Positions 1 through 5,696 of a stretch of 5,696 nt of DNA are shown here, piece after piece. The notes under the pieces are model-generated. The model searched no databases, was not told the DNA's origin, and was given only the letters and a program-made list of their open reading frames with translations. Origin of the DNA: Pseudomonadota bacterium (GTDB taxonomy: Bacteria; Pseudomonadota; Gammaproteobacteria; Steroidobacterales; Steroidobacteraceae). The position numbers and the translations under genes were made by a program. Location of the stretch: positions 1 to 5,696 of the forward strand of contig JAKAFQ010000299.1 of the NCBI GenBank assembly GCA_021817875.1, in the 5' to 3' direction. How positions within the stretch are numbered: position 1 is the first letter of the stretch; every line of letters begins with the position of its first letter.

Positions 1-1
1 G

Positions 2-313
2 GCTTCGCTGCAGCATACCCTGGGCCTGCCGAACGGCGCGGCGCTCACCGCGCAGATCGACGGCAAATACCAGTCGAGATTCTATTTCGACATTTTCAAT
101 CATCCGGACACCTCGCAGCGCGCCTACGCCATGGGCGATGCCTCGCTGACCTATTTGCCGGAGAGCGGTCGATGGAGCGTGGAGGGCTACGTGCGCAATT
201 TCTCCAATGAGGTGGTGCTGGCGGATGCCGCGCGCAACCCGACGGCGGCGGGTAACAACTACGAGTTCCAGCCGCCGCGCACCTACGGCGTGCGTGTGAC
301 CGCGCATTTCTAG
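2..313 (+). CDS. TonB-dependent outer-membrane receptor, C-terminal fragment
   Basis: The frame is open from the first bases of the window to a TAG at 311-313, giving the last 103 residues of a larger protein whose start lies upstream. The fragment has the alternating polar/aromatic pattern of amphipathic beta-strands separated by short turns: a strand pair around residues 15-33, another around residues 44-74 (SLTYLPESGRWSVEGYVRN), and a last strand after FQPPRTYGVRVTAHF. The PPRTYGVR segment followed by a terminal phenylalanine is typical of the final barrel strand of TonB-dependent receptors, where the C-terminal aromatic residue is the signal for outer-membrane insertion. The role would be energised uptake of a substrate too large or too scarce for porins; here a plant glycoside or oligosaccharide is likely, judging from the neighbours. 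The plug domain and TonB box are outside the window, so substrate class cannot be read. The rhamnosidase gene follows after 71 bp with no convincing terminator, suggesting co-transcription. Confidence 0.88.
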   Translation, partial: ASLQHTLGLPNGAALTAQIDGKYQSRFYFDIFNHPDTSQRAYAMGDASLTYLPESGRWSVEGYVRNFSNEVVLADAARNPTAAGNNYEFQPPRTYGVRVTAHF

Positions 314-337
314 GCTGTGGCGGGCGCGAACGAAACG

Positions 338-366
338 CCGGTGCCGCTCATGAGGAGCGTTGCCGG
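338..366 (+). repeat. Imperfect hairpin in the receptor-rhamnosidase gap
   Basis: CGCTC (345-349) pairs with GAGCG (355-359) around a 5-nt loop. The stem can be extended with bulges by CCG/GC at 338-344 and GC/CGG at 362-366. The 3' side touches the GGAGGT ribosome-binding motif (365-370). There is no T-run, so it is not a good intrinsic terminator; it might attenuate or modulate translation of the next gene, or stabilise the upstream message. Confidence 0.25.
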
Positions 367-385
367 AGGTCATGTGAGCCGGTAG
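350..385 (+). other. Possible 11-codon leader ORF overlapping the rhamnosidase start
   Basis: An ATG at 350 opens an 11-codon frame (MRSVAGGHVSR) that ends with TAG at 383-385. Its last base is the first base of the GTG start of the rhamnosidase, a TAGTG stop-start overlap. No clear Shine-Dalgarno precedes the ATG. If translated, it could couple ribosomes to the downstream GTG, whose own GGAGGT motif is unusually distant. It may equally be chance. Confidence 0.2.
365..370 (+). promoter_or_regulatory. Ribosome-binding site for the rhamnosidase
   Basis: GGAGGT is a strong anti-16S match but lies 14 nt before the GTG at 385, longer than the usual 5-9 nt. The only ATG closer to it (372) is followed at once by TGA. 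The next start that keeps the twin-arginine signal in frame is the GTG at 385, so this is taken as its ribosome-binding site. Confidence 0.5.
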
Positions 386-2976
386 TGGGCACGAACCGGC
401 GGACGGTGCTGCAGGCGCTGGCGGCCGGCGGGCTGAGCGTCAGTCTGGCCGCCGTGGCCCGCACCGGCAGACGCTGGCGGGCGGCACTCGCGACTGGTCG
501 ATGGACGGAAGACTCGCCAGCCCGCAGCGTGATCGGACCGCAGAGGGTGCATGTCCTCACAGGGAAGGTGCGCAACCCGGACGGCCTGGTGCGCCCGGGC
601 ACGACGGTCGTCACGGTCGCCGAGGACGGGCCTGCGACCGTGGTGCTCGATTACGGCCGGATCGTCGGGGGCCGTCCGCTGTTCGAGGTGCTCGACTCGA
701 CAGGGGAGGTCCGGCTGCGGTCGATCTACTCTCAGGCATTGCCGTGGTTGTTTCCGGATGGGGACGGGCCGGCGCCGGGTAAACCGGGGGCAACCGCCGC
801 GGCACCCAAGGAGGTGTCCTTCGTGGGGTGCGCCGGCGCGGCGGATCTGTCGCGGGTGGAGTGGATCCCGCTGCGCAAGGGCCGGATTCTCAACAGGCTG
901 ATCCAGGGCGGGCAGAGATTCCAGGCGCTGCAGTTCACCGGCCGCGGAACGGTTTCGCTGCGTCGTGTCGGCCTGCTGCCGACGTTCCGCCAGGAGCGCG
1001 CCGGGGGCAACCAGGGGAGTTTCGAGTGCAGCGACGCCGCGCTCACCGAGATCTGGTCGCTCGGCGCGTATGCCCTCGATGTCGCCTCGCTGCCGGCCGG
1101 CGCCCTGCCGCCGATCTGGCAGATCGGCCCCGACGGGGCGACGGTCTGGGGCGATACCTATACCGGGTATCAGCGGGGGCTGGGCTGGACGGATTACACG
1201 GTTCGCTTCAAGGTGCGGATCGATGCGAACGAGGCGTCCTGGCTGGTTCGCGCGCAGTTGCCGGACGGCATTCGCTGCGTGCTCTGCGCTCGCAACGACA
1301 CCCTGACGCAGAGCGCGCCGAATACGCTGCGCATCTATGTGCAATTCACCCAGCAGTTGATTCTGACGATTCGTCTGCCGTTCGTCATCCGGGAGCATGA
1401 ATGGTACGCGATCGAAACGACGGTGCGCGGTCGCGCCGCCCGGGTGAGCATCGGCGGTGTCGCGGTCGCATCCTTCGAGATTCCCGCCGAGGGTGGATTC
1501 TGGGGAAACACGTCCGCGGGGTGGGTGGCGCTCGCCAACGCCAGCGGCGCGCTGGCGACCTTCCGCGATCTCGAGGTGCGGGCGCCGGACGGCGCCGTGC
1601 TGCTCGATACACCGCTCACCGATGCGGCGATTCTCGATGAGTTTCTCGCCGGAACGAATCCGGTGCCGACGATCGTGGACGGGGCGACCCGCGATCGCCA
1701 GCTGTTTACGGGCGATCTGGGGGTCGCCGCCGACACGCTGTTGTACAGCAATCATGATCTTGCCTTCCTCAGCGGCAGCATCGGCCTGTTCTCACGCTAT
1801 CAGAGGCCGGATGGCGCCATAGCGACCTCGATACCGCCCCAGGCGAATCCGCGCCGGACCCCGGGCAACGCCTTCGTGCCGGGAATCCCGGATTACACCG
1901 TGCAACACGTATCGACGATTCATGCGTACTGGTGGCATACGGGCGATGAGGCTTTCCTGAAGGCGCAATGGCCGGTCGTGGTGCGCGTGCTCGAGTATCT
2001 GCGGCGGAACGTCGATCCCGCCATGGGGTTGTTCGCACCGCGGGGGCCGGGGCCGGCCGCAGAGCGCGTGGCGGAGGCGCTACCGAACATCCATTACTAC
2101 GGTGCATTGGGGCAGGCCGCGCAGATGGCGCTCGCCGTCGGAGAGGCTGGCCGGGCGGAATCGCTGAGGGTCGATGCCGTGCGGTTGCGCGCGGCGATCA
2201 ATCGTCATTTGTTCAATGATGGGCTCGGTCTGTACGGTGCCGCTGTCGGGGATCTGCAGACCATTTCCGAGCACGCGAACGCCTATGCCGTGCTGTACGG
2301 CGTGGCGGACAGGGAACGCGTCCCGGAGTTGCTGGCGCGCCTCGCCGCGGCGCTGCACGCGCCCGCGGGACCGATGCGCGGCACTGCTGCGAATGAGCGC
2401 ATCGTCAGTCCCTACACGGCCGGCTACGAGGTGCGGGCGCGTCTGGCGGTGGGCGACACGTCAGCTGCCCTGGACCTGATCCGGCGGGCATGGGCTCCCA
2501 TGCGCCGAGGCGGCGAGTACTACAGCGGTGCGACCTGGGAATACGTGGGGCTCGATGGGCGGCCCGGCCTCGGTAGCGGCACCAGCCTGGCACACCCCTG
2601 GTCGAGTGGACCGACCAGCGCGCTCTCGGCCTATGTGCTGGGGGTCCGTCCGCTGGCGCCCGGATTCGTGACCTGGCTGGTCGAGCCGCAGTTGACGGGT
2701 CTGCGCTGGGCGCGGGGCGCCGTGCCGACACCGCGAGGGCCGCTGCGGGTGCGCTGGAGGCGGGAAGGAAAGCGCCTGGCGCTGCGGGTGAGGGCGCCCG
2801 TTGGAACCCGGGGGTTCGTGGGACTGCCCGTCGCGGGTTCGGCCGATCGGATCGTTCTCGATGGTCGGCGGCAGATGGCGAGCGTGACGCCGGAAGGGCA
2901 TGGCGTGTTGCCCGGTTACCGATACGTCGGGCCGCTCGGTGGCGGCGTGCATGAGATCGCCGTCTACCCAGGATAA
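385..2976 (+). CDS. Tat-exported GH78-type alpha-L-rhamnosidase with inserted lectin-like domain
   Basis: Predicted to hydrolyse terminal alpha-L-rhamnose from plant glycosides or polysaccharides, in the periplasm or outside. The GTG start at 385 gives a twin-arginine signal: R5-R6 followed by a hydrophobic stretch to about A25 (possible cleavage after AVA). Residues about 55-235 look like the N-terminal beta domains. About 240-412 form a concanavalin/LamG-like beta-sandwich (GWTDYTVRFKVRI near 267, then WYAIET, FRDLEV at 393-398). From about 413 runs the (alpha/alpha)6 catalytic barrel with the motif DGATRDRQLFTGD at 432-444. D432, D437 and D444 align with the GH78 positions Asp/Glu/Asp of BsRhaB (D567, E572, D579), so the usual glutamate is aspartate here. 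The second catalytic glutamate is probably E719 in GATWEY, followed by SLAHPWSSGPTSAL (734-747) and a C-terminal beta-sandwich. The DGAxRDR motif and embedded sandwich recall the fungal/actinobacterial branch of GH78. Substrate is not provable; a relative acting on another sugar is possible. Confidence 0.85.
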   Translation: MGTNRRTVLQALAAGGLSVSLAAVARTGRRWRAALATGRWTEDSPARSVIGPQRVHVLTGKVRNPDGLVRPGTTVVTVAEDGPATVVLDYGRIVGGRPLFEVLDSTGEVRLRSIYSQALPWLFPDGDGPAPGKPGATAAAPKEVSFVGCAGAADLSRVEWIPLRKGRILNRLIQGGQRFQALQFTGRGTVSLRRVGLLPTFRQERAGGNQGSFECSDAALTEIWSLGAYALDVASLPAGALPPIWQIGPDGATVWGDTYTGYQRGLGWTDYTVRFKVRIDANEASWLVRAQLPDGIRCVLCARNDTLTQSAPNTLRIYVQFTQQLILTIRLPFVIREHEWYAIETTVRGRAARVSIGGVAVASFEIPAEGGFWGNTSAGWVALANASGALATFRDLEVRAPDGAVLLDTPLTDAAILDEFLAGTNPVPTIVDGATRDRQLFTGDLGVAADTLLYSNHDLAFLSGSIGLFSRYQRPDGAIATSIPPQANPRRTPGNAFVPGIPDYTVQHVSTIHAYWWHTGDEAFLKAQWPVVVRVLEYLRRNVDPAMGLFAPRGPGPAAERVAEALPNIHYYGALGQAAQMALAVGEAGRAESLRVDAVRLRAAINRHLFNDGLGLYGAAVGDLQTISEHANAYAVLYGVADRERVPELLARLAAALHAPAGPMRGTAANERIVSPYTAGYEVRARLAVGDTSAALDLIRRAWAPMRRGGEYYSGATWEYVGLDGRPGLGSGTSLAHPWSSGPTSALSAYVLGVRPLAPGFVTWLVEPQLTGLRWARGAVPTPRGPLRVRWRREGKRLALRVRAPVGTRGFVGLPVAGSADRIVLDGRRQMASVTPEGHGVLPGYRYVGPLGGGVHEIAVYPG

Positions 2977-2978
2977 CT

Positions 2979-2991
2979 TTTATACTGTAAA
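2979..2991. promoter_or_regulatory. AT-rich palindrome after the rhamnosidase stop
   Basis: TTTATACTGTAAA is an odd palindrome in which 5 of 6 base pairs match around a central C, starting 2 nt after the TAA stop. It sits in an AT-rich patch (about 2973-2994) within very GC-rich DNA and contains TATACT (2981-2986), a good -10 hexamer. No matching -35 is seen 17 nt upstream. It could be an operator or an activator-dependent promoter for the downstream repressor gene. Confidence 0.3.
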
Positions 2992-3006
2992 TGTGCTGGC
3001 CCGGAA

Positions 3007-3041
3007 GCGGGGCGTAACGTGCTCCCAGGGCGGTGCCCCGC
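3007..3041 (+). repeat. GC hairpin with 7-bp perfect arms
   Basis: GCGGGGC (3007-3013) and GCCCCGC (3035-3041) are exact reverse complements separated by 21 nt. The position, about 30 nt after the rhamnosidase stop, fits a 3'-end structure that protects or ends the upstream transcript. No T-run follows and the loop is long, so it is not a textbook intrinsic terminator. Confidence 0.3.
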
Positions 3042-3136
3042 GCACGGGAGGGCCGTGGTGCGTTCGGGAGCTGCGTTTTGTCGCGGTCTTTCGGCCATGC
3101 CCGTGCAGCGGCGCACCGCTTCGTCCGGGGCCCGTC

Positions 3137-3166
3137 TTGGCTGTCGCTCGATTTATCGATTAGAGT
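3137..3166 (+). promoter_or_regulatory. Probable promoter of the TetR-family gene
   Basis: TTGGCT (3137-3142) resembles a -35 box (4 of 6) and TAGAGT (3161-3166) a -10 box (4 of 6), spaced 18 bp; TTAGAG at 3160-3165 would give 17 bp. The start codon at 3187 lies about 20 nt after the -10, giving a very short leader. This agrees with the lack of a clear Shine-Dalgarno before 3187. Confidence 0.4.
3148..3159. promoter_or_regulatory. Candidate operator in the TetR promoter spacer
   Basis: TCGAT-TT-ATCGA is an inverted repeat with perfect 5-bp arms, placed between the proposed -35 and -10 boxes. A palindrome inside the spacer of its own promoter is the usual arrangement for autorepression by TetR-family proteins. 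It is short for a TetR operator, so the true site may extend beyond it with weaker symmetry. Confidence 0.35.
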
Positions 3167-3186
3167 GCGGGCCTCGTTTTGACTGG

Positions 3187-3861
3187 ATGCCCATTTTGGA
3201 CACCACCCCGCACGCTCGAACCCCGAAGCAGCGCCGCAGCCGGGAATCATACGAACGTATGATCGAAGGGGCAGTGGAGATTCTGCGCGAAAAAGGCCTG
3301 GAAGGGTTGACCCTGTCCGAGGTCAGCCGGCGCTCTCACGTGTCCATCGGTTCGATCTATTGCCGCGTGCAGTCCAAGGAGCATCTGCTGCGGGAGGTCC
3401 AGGCACGCGTCCTGCGGGAAATGGAACATGAATTCGCCATGCTGGTGAACCGTGTGCGCCGGCGCATGCTGCCGCTGCGCGAGCTGGTTCCGGTCCTGGT
3501 GCGAGAGCTGGCGCTGTACCTGCGGCGTCACGCGGTTCTCCTCAACTCCTTCATGCAGCAGGCGCAGCGGGACGATCACATGGCCGTCGAAGGACGTCGC
3601 AGCTATTCTCAGGCGATGCTCGACTTCAAGCTGCTGCTGCTCGAGCACCAGGCGGAATTCGGCCACCCGGATCCCGAGCGGGCCACGTCGGCCTGTTTCA
3701 TCATCGTTTACGGCACGCTGGCGCGTTATCTCGGGCTGGGGGCGATTCCCGGTGAGCATTCCGGAGCCGGCGAGGGCGACTGGAAGCAACTGGTCGAAGA
3801 CCTCGGTCTGATGGCCCTGGCGTTCCTCACCGCCCGGCAACCCATCCACGCCGGGCGCTGA
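3187..3861 (+). CDS. TetR/AcrR-family transcriptional repressor
   Basis: A 224-residue protein, a normal length for this family. Residues about 19-68 are the N-terminal DNA-binding domain: a first helix (SYERMIEGAVEILREKG), then helix-turn-helix LTLSEVSRRSHVSIGSIYCRVQSKEHLL at 41-68, the classic pattern in which IYYHFKSKEELL is replaced by IYCRVQSKEHLL. The rest is the helical ligand-binding and dimerisation domain, which is not diagnostic of the inducer. The frame is open further upstream to a GTG at 3019, but that extension is low-complexity and Arg-rich and would swallow the promoter, so the ATG at 3187 is chosen. It lies between the rhamnosidase and the deglycosidase pair and is flanked on both sides by palindromes, so it probably represses itself and/or the downstream pair. 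Release by the glycoside or its phenolic aglycone is an inference from context. Confidence 0.9.
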   Translation: MPILDTTPHARTPKQRRSRESYERMIEGAVEILREKGLEGLTLSEVSRRSHVSIGSIYCRVQSKEHLLREVQARVLREMEHEFAMLVNRVRRRMLPLRELVPVLVRELALYLRRHAVLLNSFMQQAQRDDHMAVEGRRSYSQAMLDFKLLLLEHQAEFGHPDPERATSACFIIVYGTLARYLGLGAIPGEHSGAGEGDWKQLVEDLGLMALAFLTARQPIHAGR

Positions 3862-3885
3862 GCCGGCCGCGCAAAGCGGTACGGC
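3862..3885 (+). terminator. Hairpin directly after the TetR gene, possible terminator
   Basis: Immediately after the TGA, GCCG (3862-3865) and CCGC (3867-3870) pair with GCGG (3876-3879) and CGGC (3882-3885) around a 5-nt loop, with a small internal bulge. There is no U-tract after it, so it may depend on Rho or only stabilise the message end. Confidence 0.3.
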
Positions 3886-3897
3886 ACACCCTCTCAT

Positions 3898-3913
3898 CGG
3901 GGCCGGTGCCCCG
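3898..3913 (+). terminator. 6-bp GC hairpin with tetraloop, possible terminator
   Basis: CGGGGC (3898-3903) pairs perfectly with GCCCCG (3908-3913) around CGGT, followed by GGAATTTCC, a weak T-rich stretch. Together with the hairpin at 3862-3885 it could end the repressor transcript before the deglycosidase promoter. The U-tract is too short for a confident intrinsic terminator. Confidence 0.35.
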
Positions 3914-3923
3914 GAATTTCCGG
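3911..3923. repeat. 13-bp perfect-arm palindrome
   Basis: CCGGAA-T-TTCCGG has exact 6-bp arms around a single base and overlaps the 3' arm of the preceding hairpin. It could form an alternative stem on that side or be a protein-binding site. It lies about 45 bp upstream of the proposed -35 of the deglycosidase operon. Confidence 0.3.
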
Positions 3924-3968
3924 CTGCAGCCCTCGTGGGCGTACCTCCCGGACTGCGTCGCGCGCGGC

Positions 3969-3997
3969 TTGACGCCGCGATCCCATGCTGCTACGTT
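3969..3997 (+). promoter_or_regulatory. Possible promoter of the C-glycoside deglycosidase genes
   Basis: TTGACG (3969-3974) matches the -35 consensus at 5 of 6 positions. At 17 bp spacing, TACGTT (3992-3997) is a weak -10 (3 of 6). The -35 lies in the loop of a 6-bp inverted repeat, CGCGGC (3963-3968) with GCCGCG (3974-3979). Transcription would start near 4004, just upstream of or inside the palindrome at 4007-4020. The alternative -10 TATTTT (4020-4025) lacks a good -35. Confidence 0.35.
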
Positions 3998-4006
3998 TCT
4001 GGCTTC

Positions 4007-4020
4007 AGAATGCTCATTCT
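4007..4020. promoter_or_regulatory. Perfect 14-bp palindrome, candidate operator
   Basis: AGAATG-CT-CATTCT has exact 6-bp arms around two bases. It lies 17 bp before the TTG start of the beta subunit, at about the expected transcription start and next to its ribosome-binding site, where a bound repressor would block transcription. GAATG/CATTC half-sites occur in operators of some TetR proteins (for example Bacillus FadR), so the neighbouring TetR protein is the natural candidate, although its own promoter carries a different palindrome. Confidence 0.5.
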
Positions 4021-4025
4021 ATTTT

Positions 4026-4030
4026 AGGGG
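4026..4030 (+). promoter_or_regulatory. Ribosome-binding site supporting the TTG start
   Basis: AGGGG at 4026-4030 is a purine-rich Shine-Dalgarno-like motif 7 nt before TTG at 4038. This optimal spacing is the main reason for choosing the TTG over the GTG at 3906. Confidence 0.5.
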
Positions 4031-4037
4031 CGGTGTC

Positions 4038-4424
4038 TTGGAAAACAACTTCAGCCGCAGCTTGATCTGCCCAGATGAAGTCAAGTGCGCGCACGGCAGG
4101 CTGGAACTCGGAATCCGCCTGCCGTGGTATCGGTCGCTGCCGCTTTCGGTCGTCGAGCTCGGTGAGCTGGTGATCGACGCTCAGGTCATTCCACATCAGA
4201 ACGTGAGTCTCGAGATCAACGGACACGAGCATGGCCTCGATGAGTTGGGGGAACTCACCGGAGAGTTCTGGTACGTGCTCGACTCCGCGCGGCTTCGCCT
4301 GCCCTATGACCTGGACCCCCGGCAGCCCCACACGATTACCCTGACGCTCAATCTCTATCCGCCCTATATCCCGGGTCTCACCTGGGTCACCCGCGGTTCC
4401 CTTGCGCTCGAGGCGAAGCGATGA
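4038..4424 (+). CDS. C-glycoside deglycosidase beta subunit (DUF6379 family)
   Basis: A 128-residue cytoplasmic beta-sandwich protein with no signal peptide. The pattern GIRLPWYRSLPLSVVELGELVIDAQ (residues 25-49), then FWYVLDSARLRLP (77-89) and QPHTITLTLNLYPPYIPG (96-113), fits the small subunit of C-glycoside deglycosidases (the DgpB/CarB/DfgB type), usually about 130-150 residues. In that family this subunit packs against the TIM-barrel subunit and is needed for activity; together they cleave the sugar-to-aglycone C-C bond of 3-oxidised C-glycosides such as puerarin, carminic acid or C-glucosyl flavones. Start: the open frame extends upstream to GTG 3906, but those residues look like translated intergenic DNA. 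TTG 4038 has a well-spaced AGGGG and starts just before the conserved region. The stop overlaps the next start as ATGA, so the two subunits are translationally coupled. Recognition is from memory of the family pattern, so the exact substrate is open. Confidence 0.75.
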   Translation: MENNFSRSLICPDEVKCAHGRLELGIRLPWYRSLPLSVVELGELVIDAQVIPHQNVSLEINGHEHGLDELGELTGEFWYVLDSARLRLPYDLDPRQPHTITLTLNLYPPYIPGLTWVTRGSLALEAKR

Positions 4425-5425
4425 ACGCTCCATCCACTCCGGGCGGGCTGAAGCTCGGCACGACCCTGTACAGTTTCACCGTCGCGTTTCATTCCCGGCA
4501 GGCGAGTCTCGATCAGCTCATCGCCAAGGTTGCCGAGCTCGGCGTCGGGCCGGGGATCGAGCTGGTGGGCTTTCAGAGCATCCGGGGATTCCCGGCCGTC
4601 AGCGACTCGTTCGCCGGGCATTTCCGCGAGCTCATGGCGCGGTACCAACTCGAGCCCTCCTGCCTGTCCATCAACGCCGATACCGCGATCCGCCGCGGTC
4701 AGATGATGACCCCCGAGGAGGCTGCGCGTTATCTCGAGCCGCAGATCCGCGCCGCGGCCAAGCTGGGCTTTCCGGTGGTGAAGTCGCAGTTCGCCGCGCC
4801 CGCCGAATCGATGCGGTTGCTCCTGCCGCTGATCGAGCAGCTTGGAATCAAAGTCGGTCCGGAAATCCACGCGCCGCTCGGTGTCGACTCGCCGCCGGTG
4901 CTGGCGTATCGCGAGCTGTATGCGCAGCTCAACTCACCGCTGCTCGGCTTCGTGCCCGATTTCGGCACCTGTGCCCGGACCCTGCCGGCGAGCTATCTCG
5001 ACACCCTGCGCCGCCGGGGCATCGAGGAGCGGGCGCTCGATCTCGCCGTGTCGATCTGGAAGGGGCCGGAAAGCCCGCAGTGGAAGCGCGATGAGTTCAA
5101 TCGCCGCGCCGCCGAGCTGAAGGTCGAATCGACCAAGGCGAGCGCCCTGTCGGTGATGTTCAGCATGCTGAGTCCGCATAAACCGGAGTCGTGGCTGGAA
5201 ATCATGCCGCAGATCATTCATCTGCACGGCAAGTTTTATGATTTCGACGCCGCGGGCTACGAAAGCAGCATTCCCTACGAGGACATCCTGCCGCTGTTCG
5301 TGAAGGCGGGGTATCGGGGTTACATGTCGAGCGAGTGGGAAGGTCATCTGTACGCCTGGGAGCCGGGCTACGAGCAGGTGCGCCAGCATCATGCGCTCTG
5401 CCGACGCATCCTCGCCGGGCTGTAG
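4421..5425 (+). CDS. C-glycoside deglycosidase alpha subunit, TIM-barrel isomerase fold
   Basis: A 334-residue cytoplasmic protein of the sugar phosphate isomerase/epimerase (xylose isomerase-like, AP-endonuclease 2) fold. It begins LGTTLYSFTVAFHSRQASLDQLIAKVAELGVGPGIELVG, the typical first strand and helices. The four likely divalent-metal ligands are in their expected strand ends: E148 in PEIHAP, D180 in VPDFGTC, H267 in IIHLHGKF, and E305 in SSEWEGH (E307 is an alternative). H150 is a candidate for the acid-base residue. The HLHGKFY segment and the adjacent DUF6379 gene separate it from hydroxypyruvate isomerases and inosose dehydratases and match the catalytic subunit of C-glycoside deglycosidases (DgpC/CarC/DfgA type), which abstract the proton next to the 3-keto group and eliminate the aglycone. 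The start at 4421 overlaps the upstream stop (ATGA), with GAGG at 4410-4413 as ribosome-binding site. A lyase acting on 3-keto O-glycosides is a real alternative, since related pairs exist. Confidence 0.8.
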   Translation: MNAPSTPGGLKLGTTLYSFTVAFHSRQASLDQLIAKVAELGVGPGIELVGFQSIRGFPAVSDSFAGHFRELMARYQLEPSCLSINADTAIRRGQMMTPEEAARYLEPQIRAAAKLGFPVVKSQFAAPAESMRLLLPLIEQLGIKVGPEIHAPLGVDSPPVLAYRELYAQLNSPLLGFVPDFGTCARTLPASYLDTLRRRGIEERALDLAVSIWKGPESPQWKRDEFNRRAAELKVESTKASALSVMFSMLSPHKPESWLEIMPQIIHLHGKFYDFDAAGYESSIPYEDILPLFVKAGYRGYMSSEWEGHLYAWEPGYEQVRQHHALCRRILAGL

Positions 5426-5491
5426 ATCGCCGATCGACGCGCCGCCGGCTGCGGCAGGTTCGGCCCCGCCAAGACCTATCGACGGTATTGC
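5426..5491. other. Short gap before the GH43-like gene
   Basis: Sixty-six bases with one small GC hairpin: GCCGC (5441-5445) with GCGGC (5451-5455) around five bases and no T-run. No convincing promoter or strong ribosome-binding site is seen. The next gene is therefore probably read from the same transcript as the deglycosidase subunits. Confidence 0.4.
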
Positions 5492-5696
5492 ATGAAGGCC
5501 ACGCGCAGGCAGGCTCTGGGACTCCTCGGTTCCGCCGCAGCTCTGCCCGCTGCGGCAGGCATGGGGCGCACCGCGCGGTATCCGGCCGAGGACCCCGGAG
5601 CGCAGTGCCGACTGGCGGTCTCGGGCTGGAGGGTCGGTTCCGAGGGACAACGGCTGGCGGATCTCGGCGACGGACGCTTCCTCAATCCCATCCTGC
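5492..5696 (+). CDS. Tat-exported GH43-like glycosidase, N-terminal fragment
   Basis: The frame opens with ATG at 5492 and is still open at the window end, giving 68 residues. MKATRRQALGLLGSAAAL is a twin-arginine signal peptide (R5-R6 then a hydrophobic core) with a probable cleavage after A22 (AAA), so the enzyme is exported folded, like the upstream rhamnosidase. After about 30 residues of linker, LADLGDGRFLNPIL (55-68) matches the entry to GH43 five-bladed propellers, where NPIL is normally followed by GD(H/Y)PDPS, carrying the catalytic base aspartate; that motif is just beyond the window. GH43 enzymes release arabinose or xylose from plant glycans and glycosides. Only the N-terminus is visible, so the family assignment rests on one motif, and the substrate is unknown. 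Context with rhamnosidase and C-glycoside deglycosidase suggests trimming side sugars. Confidence 0.65.
   Translation, partial: MKATRRQALGLLGSAAALPAAAGMGRTARYPAEDPGAQCRLAVSGWRVGSEGQRLADLGDGRFLNPIL

Follow-up and report, generated by a model that had tools for sequence, protein, structure and literature searches.

A predicted two-subunit C-glycoside deglycosidase from Steroidobacteraceae and the gene neighbourhoods of its Gram-negative relatives

C-glycosides resist hydrolysis, and lyases of the C-glycoside deglycosidase (CGD) kind are, as far as we know, among the few known ways to break the aryl C-glycosidic bond. The metal site of a CGD is composed of two Glu, one Asp, one His and one Lys; in AgCGD2 the ligands are E147, D179, H269, K271 and E305, the base is H149, and E307 is a further site residue (Mori et al. 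2021, PMC8563793). In the gut enzyme PuCGE, replacement of Tyr39 of the beta subunit by Phe removed more than 99% of C-glucoside cleavage, but lowered the cleavage of 3-keto-phlorizin only 2.4-fold (Bitter et al. 2023, PMC10628242). CGDs are heteromers with the active site between alpha and beta. The sources named for tested or solved CGDs, in the excerpts of papers and PDB titles covered, are a gut bacterium, an Actinomycete or Deinococcus, and none is from Pseudomonadota or Acidobacteriota; the hosts of W974-1/P581a (PDB 9m3a/9m3b) are outside this tally. In literature covered as titles and the starts of abstracts, with most subscription papers outside its scope, we found no experiment on a CGD from Pseudomonadota.

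Here we analyse 5,696 nucleotides of DNA from a member of the Steroidobacteraceae (assembly GCA_021817875.1, contig JAKAFQ010000299.1, positions 1–5,696 of the forward strand), referred to as the window. The window contains a gene pair that very probably encodes a heteromeric Mn2+-type 3-keto-C-glycoside lyase, that is, a CGD, an activity that we predict from homology. CGD homologues had already been noted in Proteobacteria in 2021 (PMC8563793), and Pseudomonadota were described in 2025 as having homologues of PurABC. What is of interest is how the Gram-negative loci are laid out: they combine a dehydrogenase-type GMC flavoprotein, a hydratase and two CGD classes, a layout that we did not find described in the literature covered, which left most subscription papers outside its scope. 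Homology, fold, active-site residues, gene order and the neighbours present in relatives are what the analysis itself establishes.

The gene pair

The genes of the window all lie on the forward strand, in the order TonB receptor end, GH78-like protein, TetR, CGD beta, CGD alpha and GH43 start. The features are as follows.

2–313, forward strand: C-terminal end of a TonB-dependent receptor that enters from the left (TIGR01783, E=1.4e-5, positions 552–649 of 649)
385–2976, forward strand: GH78-like alpha-L-rhamnosidase with a Tat-like N-terminus and a GTG start (PF17389, E=1.7e-14; PF17390, E=9.8e-16)
3187–3861, forward strand: TetR-family regulator (PF00440, E=1.2e-8)
4007–4020, no strand assigned: inverted repeat AGAATG-CT-CATTCT just 5' of beta, 1 of 10 short inverted repeats in 184 bp
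4026–4030, forward strand: AGGGG, Shine–Dalgarno-like, ending 7 nt ahead of the beta TTG
4038–4424, forward strand: CGD beta subunit, 128 aa, TTG start, PF19906
4421–4424, forward strand: ATGA overlap of the alpha start and the beta stop, read from the sequence, with an identical 4-bp overlap in the closest relative
4421–5425, forward strand: CGD alpha subunit, 334 aa, TIM barrel with helices at about 190–249
5492–5696, forward strand: 5' part of a Tat-type secreted GH43 protein that leaves the window, its N-terminus near-identical by eye to the open reading frame at 11072–12715 in the closest relative

The two open reading frames of the pair sit where an earlier note on this DNA had placed them and share ATGA, an overlap that may couple the translation of beta and alpha. 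An alternative in-frame GTG at 3906 would give a beta subunit of 172 aa. The TTG start is supported because the closest relative (locus L001, alpha at 93%) keeps both the TTG and the GGGG before it, but with a 2-nt insertion there, and because beta is 127–132 aa long in 97 of 120 relatives among the matches listed. In all 22 relatives from Pseudomonadota and Acidobacteriota the beta gene immediately precedes alpha, with a spacing of -4 to +43 bp between the beta stop and the point where the alpha match begins, so their adjacency is more than chance.

Sequence and fold

The small protein had been read in the earlier note as a member of the C-glycoside deglycosidase beta family of Pfam, and PF19906 indeed matches it (E=1.1e-11, 44.9 bits against a cut-off of 27.6). 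Its seven matches among PDB sequences at E≤10 all come from CGD entries, led by 8umc_B (E=2e-10), 7bvr_B (E=2.1e-9) and 7dnm_B (E=5.5e-9). For alpha, nine PDB sequences match at E≤1: the first eight are CGD alphas, in the order 7dnm (AgCGD2, E 1.9e-66), 8qvc, 9m3a, 7bvr, 7xrf, 8qrz, 9m3b and 7bvs, and the ninth is 4ovx (E=7.4e-6). The comparison with known enzymes proposed in that note thus gave sequence matches to DgpB–DgpC, AgCarB2–C2, DfgA–DfgB and Deinococcus aerius CGD chains. NCBIfam gave no match at E≤0.1 for either subunit.

Single-chain AlphaFold2 models (pLDDT 93.3 for beta and 91.6 for alpha) were compared with the PDB using Foldseek. All 17 matches of the beta model at E≤0.001 are CGD proteins, and the next, 6kjk, has a TM score of 0.37. 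The top 16 matches of the alpha model are CGD chains, with AgCGD2 first (TM 0.92, 39% identity). The alpha model has five helices at 190–249 and aligns with AgCGD2 over 332 columns; on this overlay the helices probably form the helical lid that is common, although not universal, in CGDs. The Pfam family, PDB sequence matches and fold matches together support the two-subunit CGD reading put forward earlier, with activity as a prediction.

Active-site residues

Aligned to AgCGD2, alpha carries metal ligands E148, D180, H269, K271 and E305, base H150 and E307, and all seven are invariant in a 32-row alignment (A1). In a wider set of 63 alphas, taken from 36 chosen loci plus the window, D180 and K271 are kept in 63 rows, E305 and E307 in 61 each and H269 in 59; E148 and H150 are also kept in 63 of 63, partly by selection, because an E-x-H-x-P motif filter had removed 5 of 67 candidates beforehand (one more was removed as short). 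All five filtered candidates keep the Glu. Two of them, in L047 (1310–2338, forward) and L052 (14855–15925, reverse), are alpha-like open reading frames without the base His, with EVQG and EIQG, respectively, in place of E-x-H. Of the four ligands named in the earlier note, E148, D180 and E305 stand; H267 does not, as the aligned metal His is H269, and H267 is conserved in 56 of 63 alphas but aligned with a non-ligand position. That list also omitted K271 and the catalytic base H150.

The position of the metal His is occupied by Gln in 4 of the 63 rows (L082 2931–3827, reverse; L052_1p; L022_6661m; L006_861p). The L082 protein resembles the Microbacterium testaceum CGD 8qrz, a chain of 435 aa that is matched from residue 140 onwards; unlike the matched part of that chain, the L082 alpha is a separate gene beside its beta.

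In beta, Y31 aligns with Tyr39 of the PuCGE beta subunit. The alignment has 326 rows, including near-duplicates, of which 11 are gapped at this column; the remaining 315 have Tyr (293), Ile (21) or Phe (1). The Ile-bearing rows (21 of 326) are extra beta-like open reading frames roughly 5–10 kb away from the main match, in actinobacterial L040, L042, L043, L045, L046, L048 and L052 and in 14 more up to L077.

N248 of AgCGD2, a flavone contact, is S248 in the window alpha, a difference that counts against the C-glycoside reading. The column is variable, and with Ser in place of the AgCGD2 Asn, residue 248 does not assign the substrate position (C6 or C8).

Alpha phylogeny and the closest relative

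In a tree of 63 alphas, drawn with a midpoint root for display only, the window and L001 group together (100/100) inside a 24-row clade of Pseudomonadota plus Acidobacteriota (100/99). This clade is part of a 40-row half that also contains AgCGD2; rows resembling 8qvc and 8qrz fall in the other half, of 23 rows.

L001 has MFS, Gfo/Idh, hydratase, GH78, TetR, beta, alpha and GH43 genes in one direction. The hydratase is the open reading frame at 4427–5479, between Gfo/Idh and GH78, and takes its name from a single strong match, to PDB 8ro4, '2-hydroxy-3-keto-glucal hydratase' (E=1.4e-176). The L001 genome (G001) has three places matching PF19906, all on one contig: the window-type pair and, about 27 kb away, an alpha–beta–beta–alpha group that comprises two further CGD pairs. 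One alpha of this group is near D. aerius CGD (66% over 101 aa) and the other is near M. testaceum CGD 8qrz (E 1e-123). The L001 contig also has a GMC open reading frame, about 17.5 kb downstream of its alpha, that is 49–50% identical to GMC proteins in the CGD loci L005, L006, L007 and L009 (Pelomonas, Ideonella); those loci have no Gluconate_2-dh3-type small subunit, and their GMC proteins begin without an evident signal. The region C62:1–60000 also encodes a carboxylesterase, two amidohydrolases, a molybdopterin oxidoreductase, GH39, TonB and LacI proteins, two more PF01261 proteins, a luciferase-like protein and a GMC protein. The distribution of PF19906 is patchy, with matches in 3 of 100 genomes drawn from the family of G001, G001 counted.

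Neighbours and regulation in the window

The TonB receptor fragment is a weak match (24 bits against a TIGR01783 cut-off of 223.5) and has no Pfam match. The GH78-like protein, in which the Tat-like motif was read by eye, also matches PDB 8iwd_A (E=4.2e-26). It has an insertion at about residues 267–399 that resembles, weakly and in both cases short of the cut-off, the C-terminal lectin domain of GH59 (E 0.0066) and 3keto-disac_hyd (E 0.32). The GH43 fragment itself has no Pfam match; its counterpart in L001, 11072–12715, belongs to PF04616 (E=7.4e-81). No oxidase is found among the window open reading frames.

The TetR protein is a candidate local regulator. The inverted repeat at 4007–4020 might be its operator, a reading that is a guess because ten short repeats of this kind occur in the region; one of the six pairs of the 4007–4020 repeat is broken in L001. 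A second short inverted repeat, at 3148–3160 upstream of the TetR gene, is kept in L001 and is another possible operator. A scan of 2950–4060 gave a single promoter match, on the minus strand, and no terminator. A by-eye candidate promoter, TTGACG-17-TACGTT at 3969–3997, fell under the scan threshold and is not claimed.

Layout of the Gram-negative loci

A genome scan identified 78 CGD loci, of which the 22 from Pseudomonadota and Acidobacteriota form our context table; loci from Bacteroidota (L020, L025, L041), Actinomycetota and Chloroflexota were excluded. Neighbours were called by tblastn (E≤1e-12 over 40% of the query), with queries partly from the same loci. Two of the loci, L006 and L007 of Ideonella, are nearly identical, and contig ends truncate several loci; the counts are therefore not independent of one another, and each absence is a lower bound.

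A GMC flavoprotein is present in the flanks of 18 of the 22 loci, MFS in 16, a TonB receptor and Gfo/Idh in 11 each, and a hydratase homologue and a Gluconate_2-dh3-type small subunit in 9 each; GH43 occurs in 2 and GH78 in 1, which is the closest relative, L001. The four loci with no GMC within the flanks include L001. The earlier note had called a setting of TonB receptor and glycoside hydrolases less usual for such a pair: the glycosidases are indeed rare among these relatives, but a TonB receptor flanks half of them. GMC type c14 (≥40% identity) occurs in nine loci, the same nine that have the small subunit. GMC type c29 lies directly after alpha in L014, L015, L018, L028 and L036 (Rhizobiaceae, Devosiaceae, Roseobacteraceae), and in these five loci the kinds of hydratase and Gfo/Idh that were searched for gave no match. 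A plasmid search returned relatives in 23 records, all at less than 60% identity.

At least one further alpha-like match occurs in 12 of the 22 loci, and the tree places one in class I in ten of them (L002, L004, L005, L006, L007, L008, L009, L012, L013 and L022), so that class I and class II pairs share a locus. This co-occurrence suggests that the two classes divide the substrates between them. Class I pairs usually run from alpha to beta, with the reverse order in L013 and for one of the two pairs of L012. The full set is seen in Duganella guangzhouensis (L004), with TonB, MFS, a class I alpha–beta pair, hydratase, small subunit, GMC, Gfo/Idh and a beta–alpha pair of the window class.

A proposed route

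The pair would probably catalyse the second step, elimination, of an oxidise–eliminate–hydrate–reduce route. Tat-exported GH78 and GH43 enzymes may first trim O-linked sugars outside the cytoplasm, and a GMC flavoprotein would oxidise the C-glycoside at C3. The C3-oxidised sugar would bind the metal of alpha, where H150 would take the C2 proton; beta would close the aglycone pocket and Y31 would help to expel the phenolic carbon, breaking the C1–aryl bond and leaving free aglycone and 2-hydroxy-3-keto-glucal. The roles of metal, base and Tyr are drawn from PMC8563793 and PMC10628242. Hydration of the glucal would give a 3-keto-sugar, which a Gfo/Idh enzyme would reduce.

The hydratase and Gfo/Idh homologues of relatives fit the steps after cleavage, and the 8ro4-like open reading frame links L001 to an enzyme acting on the CGD product. 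The enzymes for oxidation, hydration and reduction are presumably encoded in the genome from which the window comes. Against the route count the lack of an oxidase in the window, the four relatives with no GMC in their flanks, and the presence of hydratase in only 9 and of Gfo/Idh in only 11 of the 22 loci, several of which are truncated. Gfo/Idh could instead be the oxidase: the L004 protein weakly matches a glycoside 3-dehydrogenase model, and the L001 protein matches DgpA1 (9m3d, E 2.1e-7), far behind 3v5n (E 2.5e-105). We think that the GMC protein is the likelier oxidase; in the one c14 member compared, the nearest proteins are fructose and glucose dehydrogenase subunits. Plausible Tat-like RR motifs, read by eye, in the small subunits of six of the nine loci suggest export. 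By eye, GH78 and GH43 begin with Tat-like peptides whereas neither CGD subunit does, which would place trimming in the periplasm and cleavage in the cytosol; every compartment given here is a predicted one.

More broadly, and with considerable doubt, the window may belong to a Gram-negative route for C-glycosides that differs from those of gut bacteria (NAD, DgpA) and of actinobacteria (O2, CarA/PurA). Substrates would be imported through the TonB receptor and trimmed in the periplasm by Tat-exported glycosidases. A flavo-dehydrogenase akin to fructose and glucose dehydrogenases (with the Gluconate_2-dh3-type small subunit in 9 of 22 loci) would then oxidise C3, and an MFS carrier would take up the 3-keto-C-glycoside. 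Cleavage in the cytosol would fall to two divergent CGD classes, which occur together in 10 of 22 loci and may differ in the glycosylation position that they act on. Together with its relatives, the window pair supplies predicted CGDs from Pseudomonadota and Acidobacteriota with a testable partner set of GMC flavoprotein, hydratase and Gfo/Idh, and loci that hold both classes provide a built-in comparison.

Alternative readings

The native substrate, like the activity, is a matter of prediction, and the pair may share the class and mechanism of CGDs and yet act physiologically on a 3-keto O-glycoside, for example the glucoside that remains once GH78 has removed the rhamnose of a rutinoside or neohesperidoside, with C-cleavage absent or incidental. 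PuCGE cleaves 3-keto-phlorizin besides C-glucosides (PMC10628242), and the GH78 and GH43 genes in the same cluster are compatible with this, as GH78 could equally point to rhamnosylated O-glucosides. We nevertheless consider it unlikely: C–C cleavage needs the beta subunit and its Tyr (PMC10628242), and beta, the Tyr and the helices at 190–249 are all kept, whereas the O-specific AtOGE is described as having neither beta subunit nor lid. C–C rather than O-glycoside cleavage is accordingly what we would expect of the pair. A single-chain eliminase of the AtOGE type was rejected, with beta and the helices at 190–249 present and AtOGE (8BVK) not among the nine alpha PDB matches.

That the pair acts as a hydratase or reverse lyase on 2-hydroxy-3-keto-glucal, while another CGD pair of the same genome cleaves, would accommodate the two further pairs on the L001 contig; against it stand the dedicated hydratase homologue in the L001 cluster and the intact cleavage residues of the window pair, and we give it very little weight. 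Less probable still is an epimerase- or dehydratase-like TIM barrel (of the IolE, hydroxypyruvate isomerase or sugar 3-epimerase type) beside an unrelated small protein. The only Pfam family of alpha is the broad PF01261 (E=1.1e-7), and several relatives are named 'sugar phosphate isomerase/epimerase' by their sources. However, IolE is absent from the nine alpha sequence matches, and only CGD proteins match the beta fold at E≤0.001. Nor does alpha group with inosose dehydratases or hydroxypyruvate isomerases, an outcome raised earlier as a way in which the CGD reading might fail: the best non-CGD fold is 4ovx at TM 0.65, and the epimerase folds listed reach 0.48–0.59, against 0.92 for AgCGD2. 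We therefore set aside an inosose dehydratase, hydroxypyruvate isomerase or epimerase identity and retain the CGD reading.

Relation to described enzymes

AgCGD2 (AgCarB2–C2 of Arthrobacter globiformis, 7DNM/7DNN) is the best match of alpha by both sequence and fold. It shares the positions of the metal ligands, the base and E307 with the window protein, and its beta subunit is homologous (E 5.5e-9). It differs in being actinobacterial, in falling in another clade of the alpha tree and in having Asn248 where the window has Ser248; among the compounds tested it accepted only the C8-glucoside (PMC8563793).

PuCGD/PuCGE (DgpB–DgpC of gut strain PUE) is homologous in both subunits (alpha, E 6e-38; beta, E 2.1e-9), and its beta has the Tyr39 that aligns with Y31. 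Its oxidase partner DgpA is a Gfo/Idh enzyme, whereas a GMC flavoprotein is present in 18 of the 22 Gram-negative loci. PuCGD assembles as an alpha4beta4 octamer (PMC8563793); the models of the window pair are of single chains.

The D. aerius CGD (8QVC/8UMC) is the top sequence match of beta (E 2e-10) and matches alpha at E 1.2e-45. It is outside the alpha tree, in which its nearest rows lie in the class I half, opposite that of the window, and class I rows supply the second pair in 10 of the 22 Gram-negative loci.

The Agrobacterium tumefaciens GlycDH–AtOGE–AtHYD–Gfo operon (PMC10628242) follows the same four-step logic, and L001 has an 8ro4-like protein and Gfo/Idh upstream of its pair, although we do not equate 8ro4 with AtHYD. 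The eliminase of that operon, AtOGE, differs from the window pair in being described as without a beta subunit, without a lid and without sequence similarity to CGE (PMC10628242).
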